Both the position numbers and the translations under genes were made by a program. From the IMG/VR virus record IMGVR_UViG_3300021425_000224, positions 1 through 21,367 of that record: 21,367 nt of DNA, one strand, 5' to 3'. This document shows positions 6,280-14,410 of the stretch, one piece after another. Positions within the stretch are counted from its first letter, which is position 1. Every line of letters begins with the position of its first letter. The notes beneath the pieces are model-generated. The model saw only the letters and a list, made by a program, of their open reading frames with translations, ran no database searches and was not told where the DNA came from. Source of the DNA: a virus.

Positions 6280-7710
6280 ATGGGTACAGGTTACACACGT
6301 AATGATACCGCTAACAACATTGCCGATGGTAACGTAATCAATGCGTCAGATCTTGACGGCGAGTTTGATGCGGTACAGGCAGCGTTTAACGGTACAACAG
6401 GACACTCACACGATGGTACGTCAGGTGAAGGACCTCAGATTGCTGCAGGGGGTATAGCAAGTAATGCTGTTACAACTGCAAAGATATTAGATGCCAATGT
6501 TACAACTGCAAAGATAGCAAACTCTAATGTTACACTTGATAAGATGGCAGCTAACTCTGTAGATAGTGATCAATATGTAGACGGGTCAATCGATAGAGTA
6601 CATTTAGCTGCTGACATTGTAGATGGAACAAAGATAGCTGATGATTCTATTAATTCTGAACATTACGTGGATGGGTCAATTGATACTGCTCACATAGGAA
6701 ACTTGCAAGTTACAACTGCCAAGATTGCAGCAGACGCTATTGATGGGACAAAGTTAGCTGATAATGCTGTAAATTCAGAACATTATACTGATGGTTCAAT
6801 CGATAGAGTCCACTTAGCTGCAGACATTATAGATGGTACAAAAATAGCTGATGACGTAATTAACTCAGAACACTACGTTGCAGGTTCTATTGACGCAGAA
6901 CACCTAGCATCTAGTTCAGTAACCAATGCTAAAATTGGAGCAGATGCAGTAACAACTGCTAAGATAGCTGATGATGTAGGATTAGGTGGTAATCCAACTA
7001 CAACTACACAATCTGCAGGTAATAACACCACAAGGATTGCAACAACTGCATTCGTGACAACTGCAGTAAATAATGCTGAACCGTTCCCAGCAGGAACATC
7101 AATGTTGTTCCAACAAACAAACGCACCTACAGGTTGGACAAAACAAACAACCCATAATAACAAAGCAATTAGACTACAAACAGGTACAGTGGGAACTGGT
7201 GGTAGCTCTGCATTTACAACAGCATTTGGAACTCCAAGTGTTGCAGGGGGTGCTATTAGTGGTAATCCAACAACCAATCATAGTGTAAGTTCAGGCAACT
7301 TAGCAGTGAGTTCTGGTAACTTAGCTGTAAGTTCTGGTAACTTAGCTGTAAGCATAAGTGGTAATATAAGTAATACAACTTTGTCTGCTAATACAATACC
7401 ATCGCACAGCCATAATTTTACAGTTCGTAACAGTTCTAACACTTTAAACCCCGGATCTACTAGTGCAGCTAACGGGGGTAATAATAATGCTACTAAAACA
7501 ACTTCAAATTTTGGTAATAATGGGGCTCACAATCACGGACATAACTTAAGTGGTAGCATGACAGGTTCACCAACATTAAGTGGTAATCCATCATTGAGTG
7601 GTAACCCAACTTTATCTGGTAATGTTAATGCAGGTAACTTGGCTGTTGGAGCATCCACTGCATCAATCAATGTACAATACGTTGACTTTATCATAGCTAA
7701 CAAGGATTAA
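6280..7710 (+). CDS. Tail fibre with repeat shaft and collar domain
   Basis: The 476-residue protein begins with a conserved tail-fibre attachment pattern (RNDTANNIADGNVINASDLDG, residues 5-25, then HSHDG near 45). The shaft, residues about 58-235, consists of repeats of the type INSEHYVDGSID followed by HLAADIVDGTKIADD, mixed with VTTAKI units. From residue 268 a tail-collar-like domain follows (FPAGTSMLFQQTNAPTGWTK), then a His/Gly/Ser/Asn-rich stretch with SSGNLAV and LSGNP repeats, ending in YVDFIIANKD, a usual terminal strand. It probably forms the trimeric receptor-binding fibre. The collar region with inserted repeats is the likely host-range determinant. It is followed at once by the accessory cassette. 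Confidence 0.85.
   Translation: MGTGYTRNDTANNIADGNVINASDLDGEFDAVQAAFNGTTGHSHDGTSGEGPQIAAGGIASNAVTTAKILDANVTTAKIANSNVTLDKMAANSVDSDQYVDGSIDRVHLAADIVDGTKIADDSINSEHYVDGSIDTAHIGNLQVTTAKIAADAIDGTKLADNAVNSEHYTDGSIDRVHLAADIIDGTKIADDVINSEHYVAGSIDAEHLASSSVTNAKIGADAVTTAKIADDVGLGGNPTTTTQSAGNNTTRIATTAFVTTAVNNAEPFPAGTSMLFQQTNAPTGWTKQTTHNNKAIRLQTGTVGTGGSSAFTTAFGTPSVAGGAISGNPTTNHSVSSGNLAVSSGNLAVSSGNLAVSISGNISNTTLSANTIPSHSHNFTVRNSSNTLNPGSTSAANGGNNNATKTTSNFGNNGAHNHGHNLSGSMTGSPTLSGNPSLSGNPTLSGNVNAGNLAVGASTASINVQYVDFIIANKD
6469..6516 (+). repeat. 18-base tandem repeat with 30-base period in fibre shaft
   Basis: An identical 18-base string, starting gttacaactgcaaagata, occurs at 6469-6486 and 6499-6516, exactly 10 codons apart, encoding VTTAKI units. 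Degenerate copies continue further along the shaft (for example near 6708). Confidence 0.8.
7288..7350 (+). repeat. Three tandem 21-base repeats (SSGNLAV) in the fibre tip
   Basis: Three in-frame 21-base units at 7288-7308, 7309-7329 and 7330-7350 encode SSGNLAV three times. The second and third are identical; the first differs at several silent positions. The array suggests recent duplication by slippage in a receptor-facing region. Confidence 0.9.
7570..7623 (+). repeat. Three tandem 18-base repeats (PTLSGN) in the fibre tip
   Basis: Units at 7570-7587, 7588-7605 and 7606-7623 encode PTLSGN, PSLSGN and PTLSGN. They are diverged at third codon positions, so this array looks older than the SSGNLAV array 220 bases upstream. 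Confidence 0.8.
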
Positions 7711-7711
7711 T

Positions 7712-8017
7712 GTGCAATTAAAAGTAGAAGATAACTGTCCTTTAAACAGTTTTAAAAAATGTAAACAGTTTAAATGTGCATGGTTTGTTCAGATGAAAGG
7801 AACAAATCCTAATGATGGAAAAGAAGTTGATGAATACGCTTGTGCTATAGCATGGTTACCAATGCTTTTAGTAGAGAATGCTGCACAGTCAAGACAAGCA
7901 GGAGCTGCTATAGAATCATTTAGAAATGAAATGGTCAAAGCCAATGAATCTAACCAAAACCTTTTAGAATTATCTAAAGTTTTAGAAATAAAAAATAATA
8001 AGAGATTAACTAAATGA
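7712..8017 (+). CDS. Four-cysteine accessory protein paired with the oxygenase
   Basis: The start is GTG at 7712, one base after the fibre stop; the overlapping ATG at 7710 is in another frame and stops after three codons. The 101-residue product has Cys at 9, 17, 22 and 44 (C-x7-C-x4-C-x21-C) in the pattern NCPLNSFKKCKQFKCAWFVQM, followed by a helical region with LPMLLVENAAQSRQAGAAIESF and a Lys-rich tail. Four cysteines in a 36-residue stretch suggest a Zn or Fe-S site. To my recollection similar proteins sit beside 2OG oxygenase genes in marine phages. Its stop overlaps the oxygenase start as ATGA, so the two are translated together. Function unknown; metal binding is an inference. Confidence 0.75.
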   Translation: MQLKVEDNCPLNSFKKCKQFKCAWFVQMKGTNPNDGKEVDEYACAIAWLPMLLVENAAQSRQAGAAIESFRNEMVKANESNQNLLELSKVLEIKNNKRLTK

Positions 8018-8601
8018 ACGATATGATAAAAATTAAAAATATTACTTTTATTTCAGCTTATGAAAATTTAGCACCTAATGATTATTGTGACAGAATGATA
8101 AAAGCTTTTGATCAGTTGGAAAGTAGAACTTCTGCTTGGAGTGGCTCTGAAGCTAACGGAGCAGGAAACAGAAAAGATTTTTCATTTATGTTTGATAACG
8201 CAAGTTACGGCTGTTTAGATTTAGCCAAAGAAACAAATGAAATATTAGATTTAGGTTTGAAAAAATACGTGGATGAATACCCATCCCTAGAACCTATGCA
8301 CTATTATAGCACTGCTATTAAAGTACAAAGAACTCCACCTAAAGGGGGATTTCATAATTGGCACTCTGAGCAATCTAGCAATGAAGCAGCACGAATGCTA
8401 ACATGGACAATATATCTTAATGATGTGCCTGAAGGTGAAGCTGAAACTGAATTTTTAGAATATGGTATGAAAATACAACCAAAAAAAGGAACAGTGTGTT
8501 TTTTTCCTGCATCTTGGACGCATACACATAGAGGTAATGCAGTTTATACACACGATAAATATATTGCTACTGGTTGGTACTATTTAGCACCACAAATTTA
8601 A
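8014..8601 (+). CDS. 2-oxoglutarate/Fe(II)-dependent oxygenase
   Basis: The 195-residue protein is a small double-stranded beta-helix oxygenase of the type common in marine phages. The expected iron ligands are His117 and Glu119 (FHNWHSEQ) and a distal His near 170-172 (WTHTHRGN). Lys182 (HDKYIATGW), ten residues after His172, is in the place of the residue that binds the 2-oxoglutarate carboxylate in prolyl-4-hydroxylase-like enzymes. The H-x-E in place of H-x-D is an accepted variant. Such enzymes couple 2-oxoglutarate decarboxylation to hydroxylation of a protein or small molecule; the substrate here is unknown. The gene starts in an ATGA overlap with the four-cysteine gene. Position beside the fibre suggests a virion protein, or a host protein, as substrate. 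Confidence 0.85.
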   Translation: MNDMIKIKNITFISAYENLAPNDYCDRMIKAFDQLESRTSAWSGSEANGAGNRKDFSFMFDNASYGCLDLAKETNEILDLGLKKYVDEYPSLEPMHYYSTAIKVQRTPPKGGFHNWHSEQSSNEAARMLTWTIYLNDVPEGEAETEFLEYGMKIQPKKGTVCFFPASWTHTHRGNAVYTHDKYIATGWYYLAPQI

Positions 8602-8612
8602 GGAGAAAAATT

Positions 8613-9026
8613 ATGGCAAAAATAACTTATGTTTTTGAAGGTGAAAACGAAGGCACTGCAAGAATTTCTATTGATGGAGAGTGTATAGATTCTGCTAATT
8701 TTGTGGGAATTGTTGCAGATGACATACACGCAATTCAATGGGATGGAGCAAGCGGTGAAATTGAGTACAAAGATAATAGCGGTAACGCCACTATTTCTGA
8801 CATTTCATCTTACAATTTTGAAACAGTCTTTGCTACAGAAAAGAAAGCAATAGCAGATGCTGAAACACAAGCTGAAGCTGATAGAATTGCTAACATGACA
8901 TACGCAGACAAAAGAGCAGAAGAGTATCCCTTTATTGCAGAACAATTAGATGACATCTACCACAATGGTATAGATGGTTGGAAAAGCACAATCACAGCTA
9001 TAAAAAATAAATATCCTAAACCATAA
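8613..9026 (+). CDS. Small tail-associated protein with YPxIxEQLDDIYH motif
   Basis: ATG at 8613 is chosen because AAGGAG lies at about 8599-8605; an upstream in-frame start at 8574 would run through the end of the oxygenase gene. The 137-residue product has an N-terminal beta region (VFEGENEGTARISIDG), a central helix (about 70-95, rich in Ala, Glu and Lys) and a C-terminal module with EEYPFIAEQLDDIYHNGIDGW ending in KNKYPKP. That C-terminal module recurs in many marine phages, including T4-like cyanophages, near tail genes, to my recollection. The function is not established; a role in tail fibre assembly or as a tail accessory protein is possible. Confidence 0.7.
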   Translation: MAKITYVFEGENEGTARISIDGECIDSANFVGIVADDIHAIQWDGASGEIEYKDNSGNATISDISSYNFETVFATEKKAIADAETQAEADRIANMTYADKRAEEYPFIAEQLDDIYHNGIDGWKSTITAIKNKYPKP

Positions 9027-9036
9027 GGGTATATAG

Positions 9037-9231
9037 ATGAAACTAGACATGCAGCCTGAGTTAAAAGTACAAATGGAACTAGATGCACATGAAAAAGAGT
9101 GTGCCATCAGATACCAAACAGTCAACGACAAGCTAGAAACCTTAGACAGAAGAATGTGGCGAATAGAAGCTATGTCTATGGTGGGTACACTTGGGGTGGT
9201 GGCTTTGATTGTTGCAATAGTTATGAAGTAA
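9037..9231 (+). CDS. Coiled-coil protein with C-terminal membrane anchor (XhlA/holin-like candidate)
   Basis: The 64-residue product begins MKLDMQPELKVQMELDAHEK, has a charged helical region to about residue 45 (with NDKLETLDRRMWRIEAM), and ends in a hydrophobic span at residues 46-63 followed by a single Lys. Coiled coil plus a C-terminal span is the layout of XhlA-like haemolysin and accessory lysis proteins of phages. No endolysin gene is visible nearby, so a lysis role is only a candidate. ATG 9037 follows AAGGG. The neighbours are the tail-associated protein and the first internal virion protein. Confidence 0.6.
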   Translation: MKLDMQPELKVQMELDAHEKECAIRYQTVNDKLETLDRRMWRIEAMSMVGTLGVVALIVAIVMK

Positions 9232-9241
9232 GGATAAAGAT

Positions 9242-10621
9242 ATGGCAGAACAAGATACCAATCAACTCTCAGTAACTCCGCCGACAAAGCCAGACTTTGA
9301 AACTAAGACTGAGGATTTGGCAGGAAAACTAGGTACTGCAGAAACGACAGTTACACCTGTTACTCAGGGCGTTCAACAAAATGAATTACTGGGAACTCAA
9401 GGGCAACTCTTATCAGATACAGATGTTCCAACTGTAACTCCCAAAACAATCGATACAACTCAAGTTGGACAGACAGCTAAACCAGTAGCAAGTGAAAACT
9501 TAGGTCAGATAACATCTCCTGTAGCTTCAGCAGTAGGTTACGTAGAAAAACAGGACTTTGCGGGTGCGACCTCTGATTTTAGTGCTGCTGATCTTATTGA
9601 TCTTGATGACATATCAAGTGCGACCTTGTCTGCGGGTGCAATGGCAGATCCTGCTCAAGAACAGCTTGATGAGAAAGCTACTGTAAAGTATCAATTAGAA
9701 TCACTACTTGGTGGCATCGAAGACGGCGAGCCACTACCTGCGTGGGCATCCCCAGCAACTAGAAAAGTTGCAGCCATAATGCAACAAAGAGGATTAGGCT
9801 CATCTAGTATGGCGGCCGCAGCTCTAACACAAGCTGTTATGGAATCAGGTATTTCTATTGCGGCCAGAGACGCAGGTGCTTATGCAAACATACAGCTAAA
9901 GAACTTAGATAACAGACAGCAAGCAGCCCTACAGAATGCACTACAAGTTGCTACACTGGACAGACAGAATGCTGATGCTAGAACTAAAGGTGCGATAAGT
10001 AACGCTCAAGCTCTTCTGTCTATTGATATAAAAGAACTGGATGCACAACAACAATCAAATGCCATAAAGTACAATGCAATGGCTCAAGCGGCATTCACTG
10101 AAGCTGCGGCTGAGAATGCTAGACAGCAGTTCAACGCAAAGAATGAGCTACAGGTAGAGGAGTACTTTGCTGAATTGGCTGTACAAGTTGACACAGCAAA
10201 CATAAACAGAGACGTGGCAATCAAACAATACAACATAAACCAAGAGAATTCATTTGCAGAGTTCAACGCTAACATGAGAGATCAGCGTGAGAAATTCAAT
10301 GCAAACATGAGAAATGTGATTGACCAATCAAATGTCAAGTGGCGTCGAGAAGTGAACACAGCAAATACTGCAGTTCAAAATGAAACTAACAGAATAAACG
10401 CACAACTTATGTACAACATGAGTGCTACGGCTATGAATGATCTGTGGCAAAAGTACAGAGATAACGCTACTTTTAATTTTACAGCTTCTGAGTCAGAGCT
10501 ACAAAGAAAGCACGAACAAGTGATACAAGCCTTAGAAGCTGCGGCAAATGCAGATGCTTACTCTGCGGCCAATAAAACAACATTAGCATCAAACATAATC
10601 AAAGTAATAGGGGCTTGGTAA
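9242..10621 (+). CDS. Probable internal virion protein (Ala/Gln/Asn-rich coiled coil, gp14-like position)
   Basis: The 459-residue protein has a Thr/Pro/Gln-rich disordered N-terminus (residues 1-110) and a conserved block LPAWASPATRKVAAIMQQRGLGSSSMAAAALTQ (interrupted here in description; about residues 161-193). A very long helical region rich in Ala, Gln and Asn follows (about 200-440), with QFNAKNE and FNANMR-type repeats. There is no membrane span or Cys. The LPAWAS...RGLGSSSMA block is familiar from marine phage structural proteins near the ends of tail modules. With the larger proteins that follow, it occupies the place of T7 gp14, an ejected core protein. ATG 9242 follows AAGGAT. The role is inferred from context. 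Confidence 0.65.
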   Translation: MAEQDTNQLSVTPPTKPDFETKTEDLAGKLGTAETTVTPVTQGVQQNELLGTQGQLLSDTDVPTVTPKTIDTTQVGQTAKPVASENLGQITSPVASAVGYVEKQDFAGATSDFSAADLIDLDDISSATLSAGAMADPAQEQLDEKATVKYQLESLLGGIEDGEPLPAWASPATRKVAAIMQQRGLGSSSMAAAALTQAVMESGISIAARDAGAYANIQLKNLDNRQQAALQNALQVATLDRQNADARTKGAISNAQALLSIDIKELDAQQQSNAIKYNAMAQAAFTEAAAENARQQFNAKNELQVEEYFAELAVQVDTANINRDVAIKQYNINQENSFAEFNANMRDQREKFNANMRNVIDQSNVKWRREVNTANTAVQNETNRINAQLMYNMSATAMNDLWQKYRDNATFNFTASESELQRKHEQVIQALEAAANADAYSAANKTTLASNIIKVIGAW

Positions 10622-11002
10622 ATGAGTTTTTTAGATAGTGTTCTTTCAGTTCTTTCTGTAGTTAAAAAGGGAGCAGAAGTATATAGTGCGTTGAGTGATA
10701 AGGATGACGATACAGGTTTTGCTCAACCTCAGAGAATTAACTTAGAGTCCAACTTAACTGCCCCAAGAGCTTCTCTGAGAACTATGGAAGCCCCAATCGG
10801 TCTTGGCTTACCAAATATGGAAACAGCCTACAGATACTTTTCAAATAATCTTTCAAGAGATAATAACTTCAGGTACGTACAAGGACAAAACTACGTAGCA
10901 AAACGAAGAAACCCTACTCCTGCTACAATGAGTGTGGCATCAGATGCAAGGGTCAAAGGTTTTACTGCTTCGTATAAAACAACGGGTGTACCAACAGCGT
11001 AA
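10622..11002 (+). CDS. Small virion-associated protein, unknown
   Basis: The 126-residue product starts at ATG 10622, directly after the previous TAA. It has a hydrophobic amphipathic N-terminal helix (FLDSVLSVLSVVKKGAEVYS, residues 3-22), an acidic linker, and then a polar, Arg/Asn-rich part with YRYFSNNLSRDNNFRYV and AKRRNPTP. There are no Cys and no clear full membrane span. It lies between two probable internal virion proteins and has no separate promoter, so it may be a small ejection or core protein. Family not recognised. Confidence 0.6.
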   Translation: MSFLDSVLSVLSVVKKGAEVYSALSDKDDDTGFAQPQRINLESNLTAPRASLRTMEAPIGLGLPNMETAYRYFSNNLSRDNNFRYVQGQNYVAKRRNPTPATMSVASDARVKGFTASYKTTGVPTA

Positions 11003-11011
11003 GGTAATATA

Positions 11012-11521
11012 ATGGATCAATTAAGAACACAGACAAATGTACGATCAGGATCTATAGAAGCGAAAGATCCTCTTGCACAAGCTATTCCGGGAACTTCCCT
11101 TACTGTAGACAATAAGAAATGGGCATGGGGTAATCCCCCTCAACATACAGATCCAGAAGTTGTGCTACAAGAAGCTACTGACAGATTAGAAGATCCTCGA
11201 TTTAAAGAAGATATGATGAAGCTATTGGTAGCAGGAGTATCCATAGAGCATATTGTAGAGACTTGGGTTATTGATGGCTTTGAGAGTGGTAAGTTCACTT
11301 TGGATGTTGGACTGCTGACTAAAGGACCTTTAGGAGTTTACATTGCATACATAGCTGAACAAGAAGATGTTCCGTACAGAATGTTTGAGAAAGACGATGG
11401 GGGTCTGAACGATAATAGAATTGATGATGAGTCTTTCTTCAAGCTTATGAAGGACAATAATCCTGCAATGTTTGAAACCTTACGAGAAGGATTAAACGAA
11501 ACTTTAAGAAAAGGTAAGTAG
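11012..11521 (+). CDS. Conserved marine-phage protein of unknown function, 169 aa
   Basis: The 169-residue protein contains the patterns KWAWGNPPQHTDPE (about residues 36-49), LVAGVSIEHIVETWVIDGFESGKF (split; about 72-95) and GPLGVYIAYIAEQEDVPYRMF (about 105-125), followed by an acidic helical tail. It looks like a soluble alpha/beta or helical protein with no membrane span and no Cys. To my recollection this pattern recurs beside the giant internal proteins of marine podoviruses, but no function is known to me. ATG 11012 follows AAGG. It could be an assembly partner or chaperone of the two large proteins that follow; that is only inference from position. Confidence 0.65.
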   Translation: MDQLRTQTNVRSGSIEAKDPLAQAIPGTSLTVDNKKWAWGNPPQHTDPEVVLQEATDRLEDPRFKEDMMKLLVAGVSIEHIVETWVIDGFESGKFTLDVGLLTKGPLGVYIAYIAEQEDVPYRMFEKDDGGLNDNRIDDESFFKLMKDNNPAMFETLREGLNETLRKGK

Positions 11522-14410
11522 ATGGCTGATATTTTTACTAAAATAGCAAAGAGTCCTGTTGCATTTGGTGTAATAAAGGGAGCTACGGATCTCTTTGTGG
11601 CGGGTAGAACTCAACAGAGAAAAGAAGCCTTAGAAAAGAAAAAGAAACAGGCAGAAATATTTGAAAAAAATCAACAAACTTTTATTGATACAGCACTTAG
11701 TAGTCAAGATATGGCTCAATCAGTCCTAACTAATTCTTATTTTAAACCTAGAATACAACAACTGGCTACAACAAATAGAGACTTGTACAACGCAATAGCT
11801 CTAAAGTCTTTAGCACCAAAAGAAGTTACTCCTTATAATCAACAAATTATAAATACGACATCTGGTAATTCTACTGCAGCACGAAATTTTATAGCTAACA
11901 ACAAAGATTATCTAGCACAAAATCCTACTCTTGCTAGAATACTGAAGACAACTGCATCTGTGGCTACCTTAACTGAAGGACAAAACAGAATAGTAAACGG
12001 TGTTAAAAATGCTGCTGATGCTAAGAAATTAATAGATGGCTATTTTCCAATAAAACAAACTAGTGAAATATTTGAAGGTCCTGTGAAAGTAAAAATCGAC
12101 GGGGGTAGACCTGTTAATGTTGAAACAGGAGAAGAGCTAAAAGGGGATTTGATTGAATATAGAGATAATAACCCTACGCAGAATGATCTATTCTATGCCT
12201 TAAATGCAAAGGCAGAAGCACTCGACGAAGAAGAATTTGAAGGTTTATCTGACACAAACATAAACACTATGAAAGATACAATAAAAGCTGCTGAAGAAAG
12301 AAACCCCGGATCAGGTATCATTCTTATTAATGACATGATGAAAAGACTAGACCCTAGAGATATCAAATCAAAATTCTTTCTTCAATCTCTTAATATTGCA
12401 TATGGTAAGAAAGAAAATTCAGGAGTATCTGTAGCAGAGCTTTTAAATGACTCTGTAGGCATGGTCAGGGAAGACATTAAAGATCAGACAAGTCGAGCTT
12501 TGTTTGCGAAGGATGTACTAGACAGCAAAAAAATTAAAGATATGGTAAGTAAAGGTTTATTTACCAAGTACTTAAATTCTGAAAATGAAGAAGAACAGCA
12601 AATAGCTAAAGATTATTTTGCATTGAAGTCTATGAAAGATAGCTTAGATAAAGTTGCAGAAGGAAAAGGTAAAGCTGGAATATCGTATGGTGGCATTGAT
12701 TTGTACCCCGCCACAATAAAAGATGTAACTACTAGCCTTCCCTTAGCAAATGCTTTCTTAGGTAGACTAAATGGATTAACAATTGGAAGTGGTACAGAAA
12801 AGGTAGACATACAAGGTTATATTAATAATCTACCCCCTCAAGAAAAAGCAGCACTCTTATCTGACATAAAATCTACCATCGAAAACCACGATAACATGAC
12901 AACAAAAGTGAAAGTAACTGAGAGCAACAGTAAGTATCAAGAGCGACCTGATAACTACGCAATTAAATTTCCTAACTTGTACAACATCCCTGAGATAAAA
13001 GCGTTCATACACGGTCCTGTTATCAATCAACCTCCTGAAGATGTCAGTGTAACTAGGAATGTTGCATCTACTCAGACTGTCGATAACACTCCTGTAGGTA
13101 ATTCTCTGCCAGATAACCAAGTTTTATTGGCAAATAAAAGCGACATTGTTACTCTTGCACCTGAAGTACTTGAATTTTCTAAAGCAAAAGGATTTGACAA
13201 ACCATCTGACATGTTAAAAGATGATGGATACTTTGAAACATTAGAAGGATCAGGAGGGTTTACTCTTGCAGGTAGTGGCACATTATTAAAAGGTAATGAT
13301 AGAATCTTTAAGGCTGCCAATGCAATAATAAGCCAAGTTCCTATGATTGGAAAATACACACCAAACTCGCTGAGAACTAAAGATTATGCAGCCATTGGTC
13401 GTACTATTGTGAACCAACAAATAGACGACGATGCAGACGTATTTGCTACCGTTTCTATGCTTATGAATGATGATTTCTCAATCAAAAAAGACCCCGGAAA
13501 AATAGGCTATGCCCAAGAACAAATTGAAGCTGCTATAACAAAACTAAGTGCGGGTGAGCTAAAAGTTGATGATATAGCAAAACAAAATGTAAACCTCAAC
13601 GATTATATCGCAACATTAAACTCTGGTATTAATAGTATAGGCGTACAGGGCGACAAGATGAATGCGACCGTAGCCCTTGAGAATATCGTAACTGATATAG
13701 TGGCATCTGAAACAGGACTTGTGAGAGGAACACTAGGATACATATCAGAAAATTTTGGTGATGTTTTTGAGATAGGTCAACGAAGTAAAGTAGTCAATTC
13801 GATGAACACCGAATATGATATATTACGTAAAGACAGAAGAATAGCTTCTGCTAAATTAGCTTCTAATTTAATAACAATAGCGTATCAGAGAGCTAGAACT
13901 CTTGATCCAAATGGTAGGATATCTGATAGAGACTTTAAAGCTGCATTAGATAGTATCACAGCTTCTTTCTTTGCGAGTAATCAAATTACAAAAGCTTTAC
14001 TTATCGACTTTAAAAATGATGCAGAATCACAGTTAATTATAAATAATAATTTACTTGAAGTTTTTACAAATATAAAAGAAGATGGTAGTAGTATTATACT
14101 AAAGAAAAACATCCGAGCAATAAGAGCAGTTCCTGTATTCAAAAAAGTAAGACAGATGACTAGCTCTATCAATGCCACTAGACAGTACAGAGATAGGTTT
14201 GTTGAAAATGGGAATAAAATAAATTATCGCTTTTATAATTTAAAAATAGTAGAAGCCCACAGACCTACAAATTCAGACTTACAAGTATATGAAGTTGTAC
14301 GAGCTACAAACGTAAATGATCCCATAGCTATAGGGCTACCTGTTTATACAAATAGATACGGAAGAATGTTAACATCACAAGAATTAAAACAGAGAGGTTT
14401 TAGACCATAA
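11522..14410 (+). CDS. Large internal virion protein (962 aa, gp15-like position)
   Basis: The 962-residue product starts at ATG 11522, directly after the preceding TAG. The N-terminus has a short hydrophobic helix (about residues 10-27) and then a Lys/Glu/Gln-rich coiled coil (about 28-55). The remainder is a mixed helical protein rich in Asn, Asp, Lys and Ile, with no recognised catalytic motif and no Cys. Size, helical character and place between a smaller Ala/Gln-rich protein and a 1690-residue protein match T7-type gp15 ejection proteins, which form part of the internal core and the trans-envelope channel. The assignment is by synteny only. It ends in a TAATG overlap with the next gene. 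Confidence 0.6.
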   Translation: MADIFTKIAKSPVAFGVIKGATDLFVAGRTQQRKEALEKKKKQAEIFEKNQQTFIDTALSSQDMAQSVLTNSYFKPRIQQLATTNRDLYNAIALKSLAPKEVTPYNQQIINTTSGNSTAARNFIANNKDYLAQNPTLARILKTTASVATLTEGQNRIVNGVKNAADAKKLIDGYFPIKQTSEIFEGPVKVKIDGGRPVNVETGEELKGDLIEYRDNNPTQNDLFYALNAKAEALDEEEFEGLSDTNINTMKDTIKAAEERNPGSGIILINDMMKRLDPRDIKSKFFLQSLNIAYGKKENSGVSVAELLNDSVGMVREDIKDQTSRALFAKDVLDSKKIKDMVSKGLFTKYLNSENEEEQQIAKDYFALKSMKDSLDKVAEGKGKAGISYGGIDLYPATIKDVTTSLPLANAFLGRLNGLTIGSGTEKVDIQGYINNLPPQEKAALLSDIKSTIENHDNMTTKVKVTESNSKYQERPDNYAIKFPNLYNIPEIKAFIHGPVINQPPEDVSVTRNVASTQTVDNTPVGNSLPDNQVLLANKSDIVTLAPEVLEFSKAKGFDKPSDMLKDDGYFETLEGSGGFTLAGSGTLLKGNDRIFKAANAIISQVPMIGKYTPNSLRTKDYAAIGRTIVNQQIDDDADVFATVSMLMNDDFSIKKDPGKIGYAQEQIEAAITKLSAGELKVDDIAKQNVNLNDYIATLNSGINSIGVQGDKMNATVALENIVTDIVASETGLVRGTLGYISENFGDVFEIGQRSKVVNSMNTEYDILRKDRRIASAKLASNLITIAYQRARTLDPNGRISDRDFKAALDSITASFFASNQITKALLIDFKNDAESQLIINNNLLEVFTNIKEDGSSIILKKNIRAIRAVPVFKKVRQMTSSINATRQYRDRFVENGNKINYRFYNLKIVEAHRPTNSDLQVYEVVRATNVNDPIAIGLPVYTNRYGRMLTSQELKQRGFRP

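Follow-up and report, generated by a model that had tools for sequence, protein, structure and literature searches.

A four-cysteine phage protein co-occurs with HxH fibre tips and is joined by an optional 2OG-Fe(II) oxygenase in one marine lineage

Phage fibre chaperones are known to be encoded beside the fibre genes. To our knowledge, how metal enters phage fibre tips is not understood, and we know of no mechanism by which phage tails would come to carry marine iron, as has been proposed. According to PMC6116203 and PMC3004832, the genes of fibre chaperones often lie immediately after the fibre gene, those of T4 are needed for the folding of the trimeric fibre, and gp38 is proposed to bring the fibre C-termini together; gp57A has no cysteine (PMC3004832). 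Iron has been found crystallographically at the HxH motifs of T4 gp37 and of pyocin fibres, with a suggested role in folding (PMC6116203), and HxH iron has been predicted for the fibre of Alteromonas phage R22Y (PMC11705849). Among the titles and abstract openings covered by our literature searches, none describes the four-cysteine protein studied here or an oxygenase acting on a phage fibre, which is not proof of absence, and the near one-to-one pairing of a cysteine protein with an HxH tip class that we report here is undescribed as far as these searches show.

The DNA analysed (the window) is a virus record of 21,367 bases. A tail fibre gene (6280..7710, +, 476 aa), identified by its ORF and by matches to phrog_892, phrog_21412 and phrog_28766 (tail fiber protein), ends in a stop codon (7708-7710, +) one base before the ORF of a four-cysteine protein, Cys4 (7712..8017, +, 101 aa, GTG start; Cys at 9, 17, 22 and 44). 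It is followed by a 2OG-Fe(II) oxygenase (8014..8601, +, 195 aa) and a fibre-assembly-chaperone-like protein of the HAIQWDG family (8613..9026, +, 137 aa), the latter recognized by a profile of the genes following Cys4 (E 8.9e-34). An earlier, sequence-only reading had described Cys4 and the oxygenase as two genes coupled by an ATGA overlap, and both their coordinates and the overlap were borne out. Viral relatives were found by scans in at least 572 stretches for Cys4 and in 28 loci for the oxygenase, and they keep the start and the gene order, so that the two are genuine genes rather than chance ORFs. The same reading held that the pair acts on the virion and pointed to a Pro-poor, Asn- and Lys-rich fibre and its accessory proteins as the substrates to try first. 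The pair is part of the fibre module and its acting on the virion is likely; the fibre is indeed rich in Asn (11.1%) and poor in Pro (2.5%), but it is not rich in Lys (2.7%). Elsewhere in the window, a small second Cys-rich ORF distant from the fibre module (153-299, +) matches DUF1289 (PF06945, E 5.5e-11), and an ORF running off the contig end (20544-21365, -), which we take to resemble part of a ribonucleotide reductase, has no Pfam match at E 0.01.

The C-terminal tip domain of the window fibre (7084..7707, +; FPAGTSMLFQQTNAPTGWTK ... INVQYVDFIIANKD) covers about residues 269-476 and ends in VQYVDFIIANKD; it was recognized in an alignment of homologous tips (A5) and by its co-occurrence with Cys4. 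The tip class is collar-like, with two HxH motifs and an end of the form VxYVDxIIAxKD. In the window, the first HxH lies in PSHSH (7399..7413, +), with H70 and H72 invariant in alignment A5, and the second, extended to HxHxHNLSG, lies in AHNHGHNLSG (7525..7554, +), with H116 and H118 present in at least 90% of the alignment rows. Both sites are HxH in 144 of the 158 tip-domain hits from Cys4 loci. The window fibre thus has motifs of the iron-holding kind seen in T4 gp37 and R-type pyocins and also present in the R22Y fibre, which agrees with the idea of iron in phage tails that the sequence-only reading had raised; unlike in those systems, the HxH tip is here co-inherited with a cysteine protein and is a candidate metal binder. 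No PDB sequence match was found for either of the two fibres searched. Only one Cys4-linked fibre without any HxH was found (locus L136), and there both Cys4 and the C-terminal end of the tip are kept. This suggests that the docking partner of Cys4, and its constant one, may be the C-terminal segment of the tip and not the metal site.

The family to which Cys4 belongs is widespread, yet database searches gave it no meaningful match. The window copy matches nothing in Pfam, PHROGs or NCBIfam; members scanned one by one gave no PHROG match (0/113) and two stray Pfam DUFs, each matching a single member; and no PDB sequence was matched up to E 10. Cys4 was also found by scan in 30 bacterial or archaeal assembly loci. 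When 346 loci were clustered at 80% identity into 120 representatives, the four cysteines (C9-x7-C17-x4-C22-x21-C44 in the window copy) were found to be kept in 120, 117, 120 and 120 of them, as in a conserved metal-ligand set, with a spacing that varies among distant members. Two very diverged copies (G217 and G114) have lost the ESFRNE helix motif and retain the cysteines. The AlphaFold2 model (pLDDT 90, pTM 0.58) predicts short N-terminal elements, a beta-hairpin (25-31/38-44) and a long helix (49-100) that bears the ESFRNEMVK motif (helix consensus ENxxxxRxxGAAxESFRNEMVK), and it places the cysteines before the hairpin and at its ends, as would be expected of a tetra-Cys metal site. Judged by these residues, Cys4 is likely to bind metal, although the invariant cysteines could form a purely structural zinc site. 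A Foldseek search of the PDB with the full-length model gave no match at E <= 0.001, the weaker rows being long-helix matches (residues 54-101), so the cysteine half may still have a known fold; in BFVD, only the family of Cys4 itself was matched at E <= 0.001. Neither Foldseek search links Cys4 to a known chaperone or metallochaperone fold.

To the gene order of Cys4 and fibre corresponds a strong association of Cys4 with the tip. In 86 of the 116 evaluable representatives, the gene immediately upstream of Cys4 encodes a fibre with the tip motif at its end, and 85 of these 86 fibres have at least two HxH motifs, compared with 27 of 704 other ORFs of at least 150 residues in the same loci. With a tip profile, a tip was found within the locus for 119 of the 120 representatives; because this profile was built from the tips of those very loci, counts seeded with the tip or with whole genomes (phage records, viral loci and two bacterial orders) served as controls for circularity. 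The exception is phage S-SCSM2R, in which Cys4 lies at 227.5 kb and two tips lie 38 kb away from it, at 189-190 kb. In a tblastn search of 50,697 named phage records, the identical 12 records (nine phage names) carry Cys4 and the tip. The viral scans took the best 80 loci from a total of 500-600 matches or more, which makes the clusters an uneven sample; among the best 80 tip-seeded loci, Cys4 is present in all 80, namely in 76 of 76 evaluable loci (68 with the two genes adjacent) and in four short ones. In the two bacterial orders (397 + 399 = 796 genomes), Cys4 occurs in 4 + 2 genomes and full-length tips (E < 1e-30) in exactly the same 4 + 2, although four of these six (G001, G002, G163 and G213) match loci already in the bacterial/archaeal locus set. 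A plasmid collection was uninformative, since neither Cys4 nor the tip had a match there. In phage S-B05 (L106), Cys4 (9004-9333) and the tip fibre (9324-11666) are convergent with a 10-base overlap; as the pair is kept with the fibre on the opposite strand, co-transcription alone is not a sufficient explanation. The near one-to-one co-occurrence, the tip-seeded controls and the S-B05 arrangement together point to this tip domain as the partner of Cys4, and we consider it very probable that Cys4 functions together with the HxH tip.

Weak tip matches (E 2e-11 or worse, mostly partial) were found in 10 + 12 further genomes of the two orders, and 21 of these 22 loci were fetched. One of them (G114) has two HxH motifs and a diverged Cys4 alongside; Cys4 is absent from all 20 of the other, collar-like loci (profile E <= 0.05). 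Among 35 domain hits from the Cys4-less loci, H-N replaces the HxH of the paired tips in 24, and HxH at both sites is seen in one. The Pfam Collar family (PF07484), whose threshold was passed by four of six proteins tested among the weak matches, shares the IPSHxH region and a weak profile similarity with the Cys4-paired tips, but its proteins mostly have H-N at the second site and no Cys4 neighbour in the 20 loci. PF07484 matched neither the window tip nor three other tip fibres up to E 0.1, and it did not match L428 or L431.

Cys4 resembles a fibre chaperone in its gene position next to the fibre and in its co-inheritance with the fibre tip. As with T4 gp38/gp57A and pyocin-type chaperones, the gene often comes straight after that of the fibre. 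In contrast to them, it is restricted to a single type of tip and has four invariant cysteines where gp57A has none, and searches found it similar to them neither in sequence nor in fold. With PF16778 (Phage_tail_APC) and the tail fiber assembly PHROGs, Cys4 shares its gene neighbourhood, a member of that family often being the gene right after it, but PF16778 itself is matched by none of the 113 Cys4 proteins. Among 115 representatives, the first gene after Cys4 is fibre-assembly-like in 56, an oxygenase in 10 and neither in 49. The window protein at 8613-9026 has no Pfam hit of its own; its family directly follows Cys4 in many oxygenase-less relatives, and some members match PF16778 or 'tail fiber assembly' PHROGs. 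The same fibre module is seen in the gene order of the cultured cyanophage P-SSM2 (L105, 9001-10470), with fibre, Cys4, a PF16778 chaperone (E 8.1e-12) and piuC, the last presumably of the 2OG family, going by its annotated name.

On balance, we slightly favour the view that Cys4 would be dedicated to the maturation of HxH fibre tips and would probably bind metal, and with somewhat more confidence we take it to be a helper and not a component of the virion. In the mechanism that we infer, which comprises metal binding, docking and chaperone action, the N-terminal half of Cys4 would fold round a metal held by the four cysteines, the long conserved helix would dock onto the fibre C-terminus, and trimerisation, the proper loading of the HxH rings with metal, or both would be promoted, comparable to the action of T4 gp38 on gp37; the chaperone-like protein encoded next may act together with it. 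Such a role would explain what this family does in the hundreds of viral contigs and the assemblies of several bacterial groups that encode it. The near-restriction of Cys4 to two-HxH tips singles out one gene for deletion and one protein for purification, and it also marks a fibre-tip class for host-range annotation.

The oxygenase belongs to the 2OG-Fe(II) superfamily, scoring 45.6 bits against PF13640 (cut-off 27). The window copy has the iron triad and the basic 2OG residue (H117-x-E119, H172 and K182), and the corresponding alignment columns hold, of 214, H in 208, E in 125 or D in 84, H in 208, and K in 128 or R in 81. Its predicted fold is of the PHD/prolyl-4-hydroxylase type (5c5t, E 6.5e-12; Z 19.6 over 162 residues, 2.8 A), with matches to a viral collagen prolyl hydroxylase (vCPH) and to PHD2/EGLN1 at Z about 19 (19.6 and 19.2). 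The fold and the 2OG-Fe(II) residues are shared with these enzymes, whereas vCPH and PHD2 use HxD and 81 of the 89 Cys4-adjacent oxygenase copies have HxE, with no conserved Pro at the candidate site. Matches to 2OG oxygenases lie within 1.5 kb of Cys4 in 30 of the 115 representatives, and in all 10 with an oxygenase directly after Cys4 a chaperone-like gene lies within 2.5 kb. The dependence is one-way, in that the subfamily of the window oxygenase is found mostly beside Cys4 and Cys4 does not need the oxygenase, which is an optional addition to the fibre module in one marine lineage.

Presence of the oxygenase is associated with the sequence of the tip. The motif HN[LFM]xG after the second HxH is found in 33 of 35 tips with an immediate oxygenase versus 1 of 133 without one within 1.8 kb (201 non-redundant tips, of which 33 with a nearby, non-immediate oxygenase were excluded); the exceptions are L058 and L264 (oxygenase, no motif) and L347 (motif, no oxygenase). 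The chances that the oxygenase modifies the fibre tip appear to us about even. The substrate that we infer in the marine lineage is the tip itself, which the PHD-type enzyme would probably hydroxylate beside the second HxH, at HNLSG, with AHNHGHNLSG (7525..7554) as the candidate site. A conserved proline substrate within the tip insert was rejected: the insert of many oxygenase-linked tips lacks Pro, none is conserved after the second HxH across these tips, and the fibre ends are no richer in it, the mean over the final 150 residues being 4.6 Pro in eight oxygenase-linked fibres and 5.0 in 65 others.

It is quite possible, if not the explanation we prefer, that the motif and the oxygenase are linked by common descent in one marine clade, the true substrate in the fibre module being another protein or none. 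The Cys4 tree holds four to five independent pairs, of which two to three are concordant and zero to one discordant; the sign test is not significant (p 0.5), as common descent would have it, whereas the concordant changes themselves argue for a functional link, as do L155 and L190, whose tips join the HN[LFM]xG motif with the C-terminal end type of oxygenase-less tips. With two to three independent events and no significance, the association is a lead on the substrate, not proof. We think it unlikely that the oxygenase sits in the fibre module by chance and has an auxiliary metabolic or host-directed task, be it 2-oxoglutarate drawdown, DNA repair or modifying a protein of the host, for example EF-Tu. 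Such a function would agree with the frequency of 2OG oxygenases in cyanophages, for which roles in nitrogen metabolism or DNA repair have been proposed (PMC3037559), and with the fold match to 4iw3, a bacterial P4H complexed with EF-Tu; however, 2OG matches peak less than 1.5 kb from Cys4, and oxygenase presence tracks the tip motif.

As to Cys4, it could instead stay in the finished particle as a small cap or adhesin that sits on the fibre tip and whose metal site is structural, in the way that gp38 adhesins of T2/T6 type cap their fibre. The strict pairing with the tip and the gene position directly after the fibre in the 86 of 116 representatives would suit this role, which we nevertheless regard as rather improbable: Cys4 is strongly conserved, unlike host-range adhesins, and phages with two tips (S-SCSM1 and S-SCSM2R) have a single Cys4, which a shared helper fits better. 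More doubtful again is the joint proposal that Cys4 is an iron or cluster metallochaperone for the HxH rings of the tip and that the oxygenase tunes or oxygen-gates the tip. Here Cys4 would insert iron or a cluster from its cysteines into the stacked HxH rings during trimer folding, and the marine oxygenase would then hydroxylate a residue beside the added third histidine, by which the iron-bearing tip would be tuned or oxygen-gated; if true, this would be the loading machinery missing from the idea of iron in phage tails. A role of Cys4 in supplying the oxygenase with iron or in presenting substrates to it, as the sequence-only reading had suggested, with occurrence apart in most relatives to count against it, is highly improbable despite the ATGA coupling in the window, the 10 of 115 representatives in which the oxygenase comes directly after Cys4, and the position beside Cys4 of most relatives of the oxygenase subfamily. 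Cys4 stays associated with the fibre tip whether or not an oxygenase is there, and an oxygenase subunit was rejected as its main role because 105 of the 115 have no immediate oxygenase.

Several loci have stacked 2OG oxygenases in the slot after Cys4 (L016:4970-5635, L021:1855-2457, L058 and L107; PF13759 or PF13640), and phage S-SCSM1 has seven annotated 2OG oxygenases around its fibre genes. The oxygenase family is also matched by phrog_2297, phrog_274 and phrog_3531 (64, 58 and 39 of 65 members, respectively), and the labels of these PHROGs, which are DNA endonuclease, endonuclease V and ferrochelatase in the same order, are probably misleading for this family.
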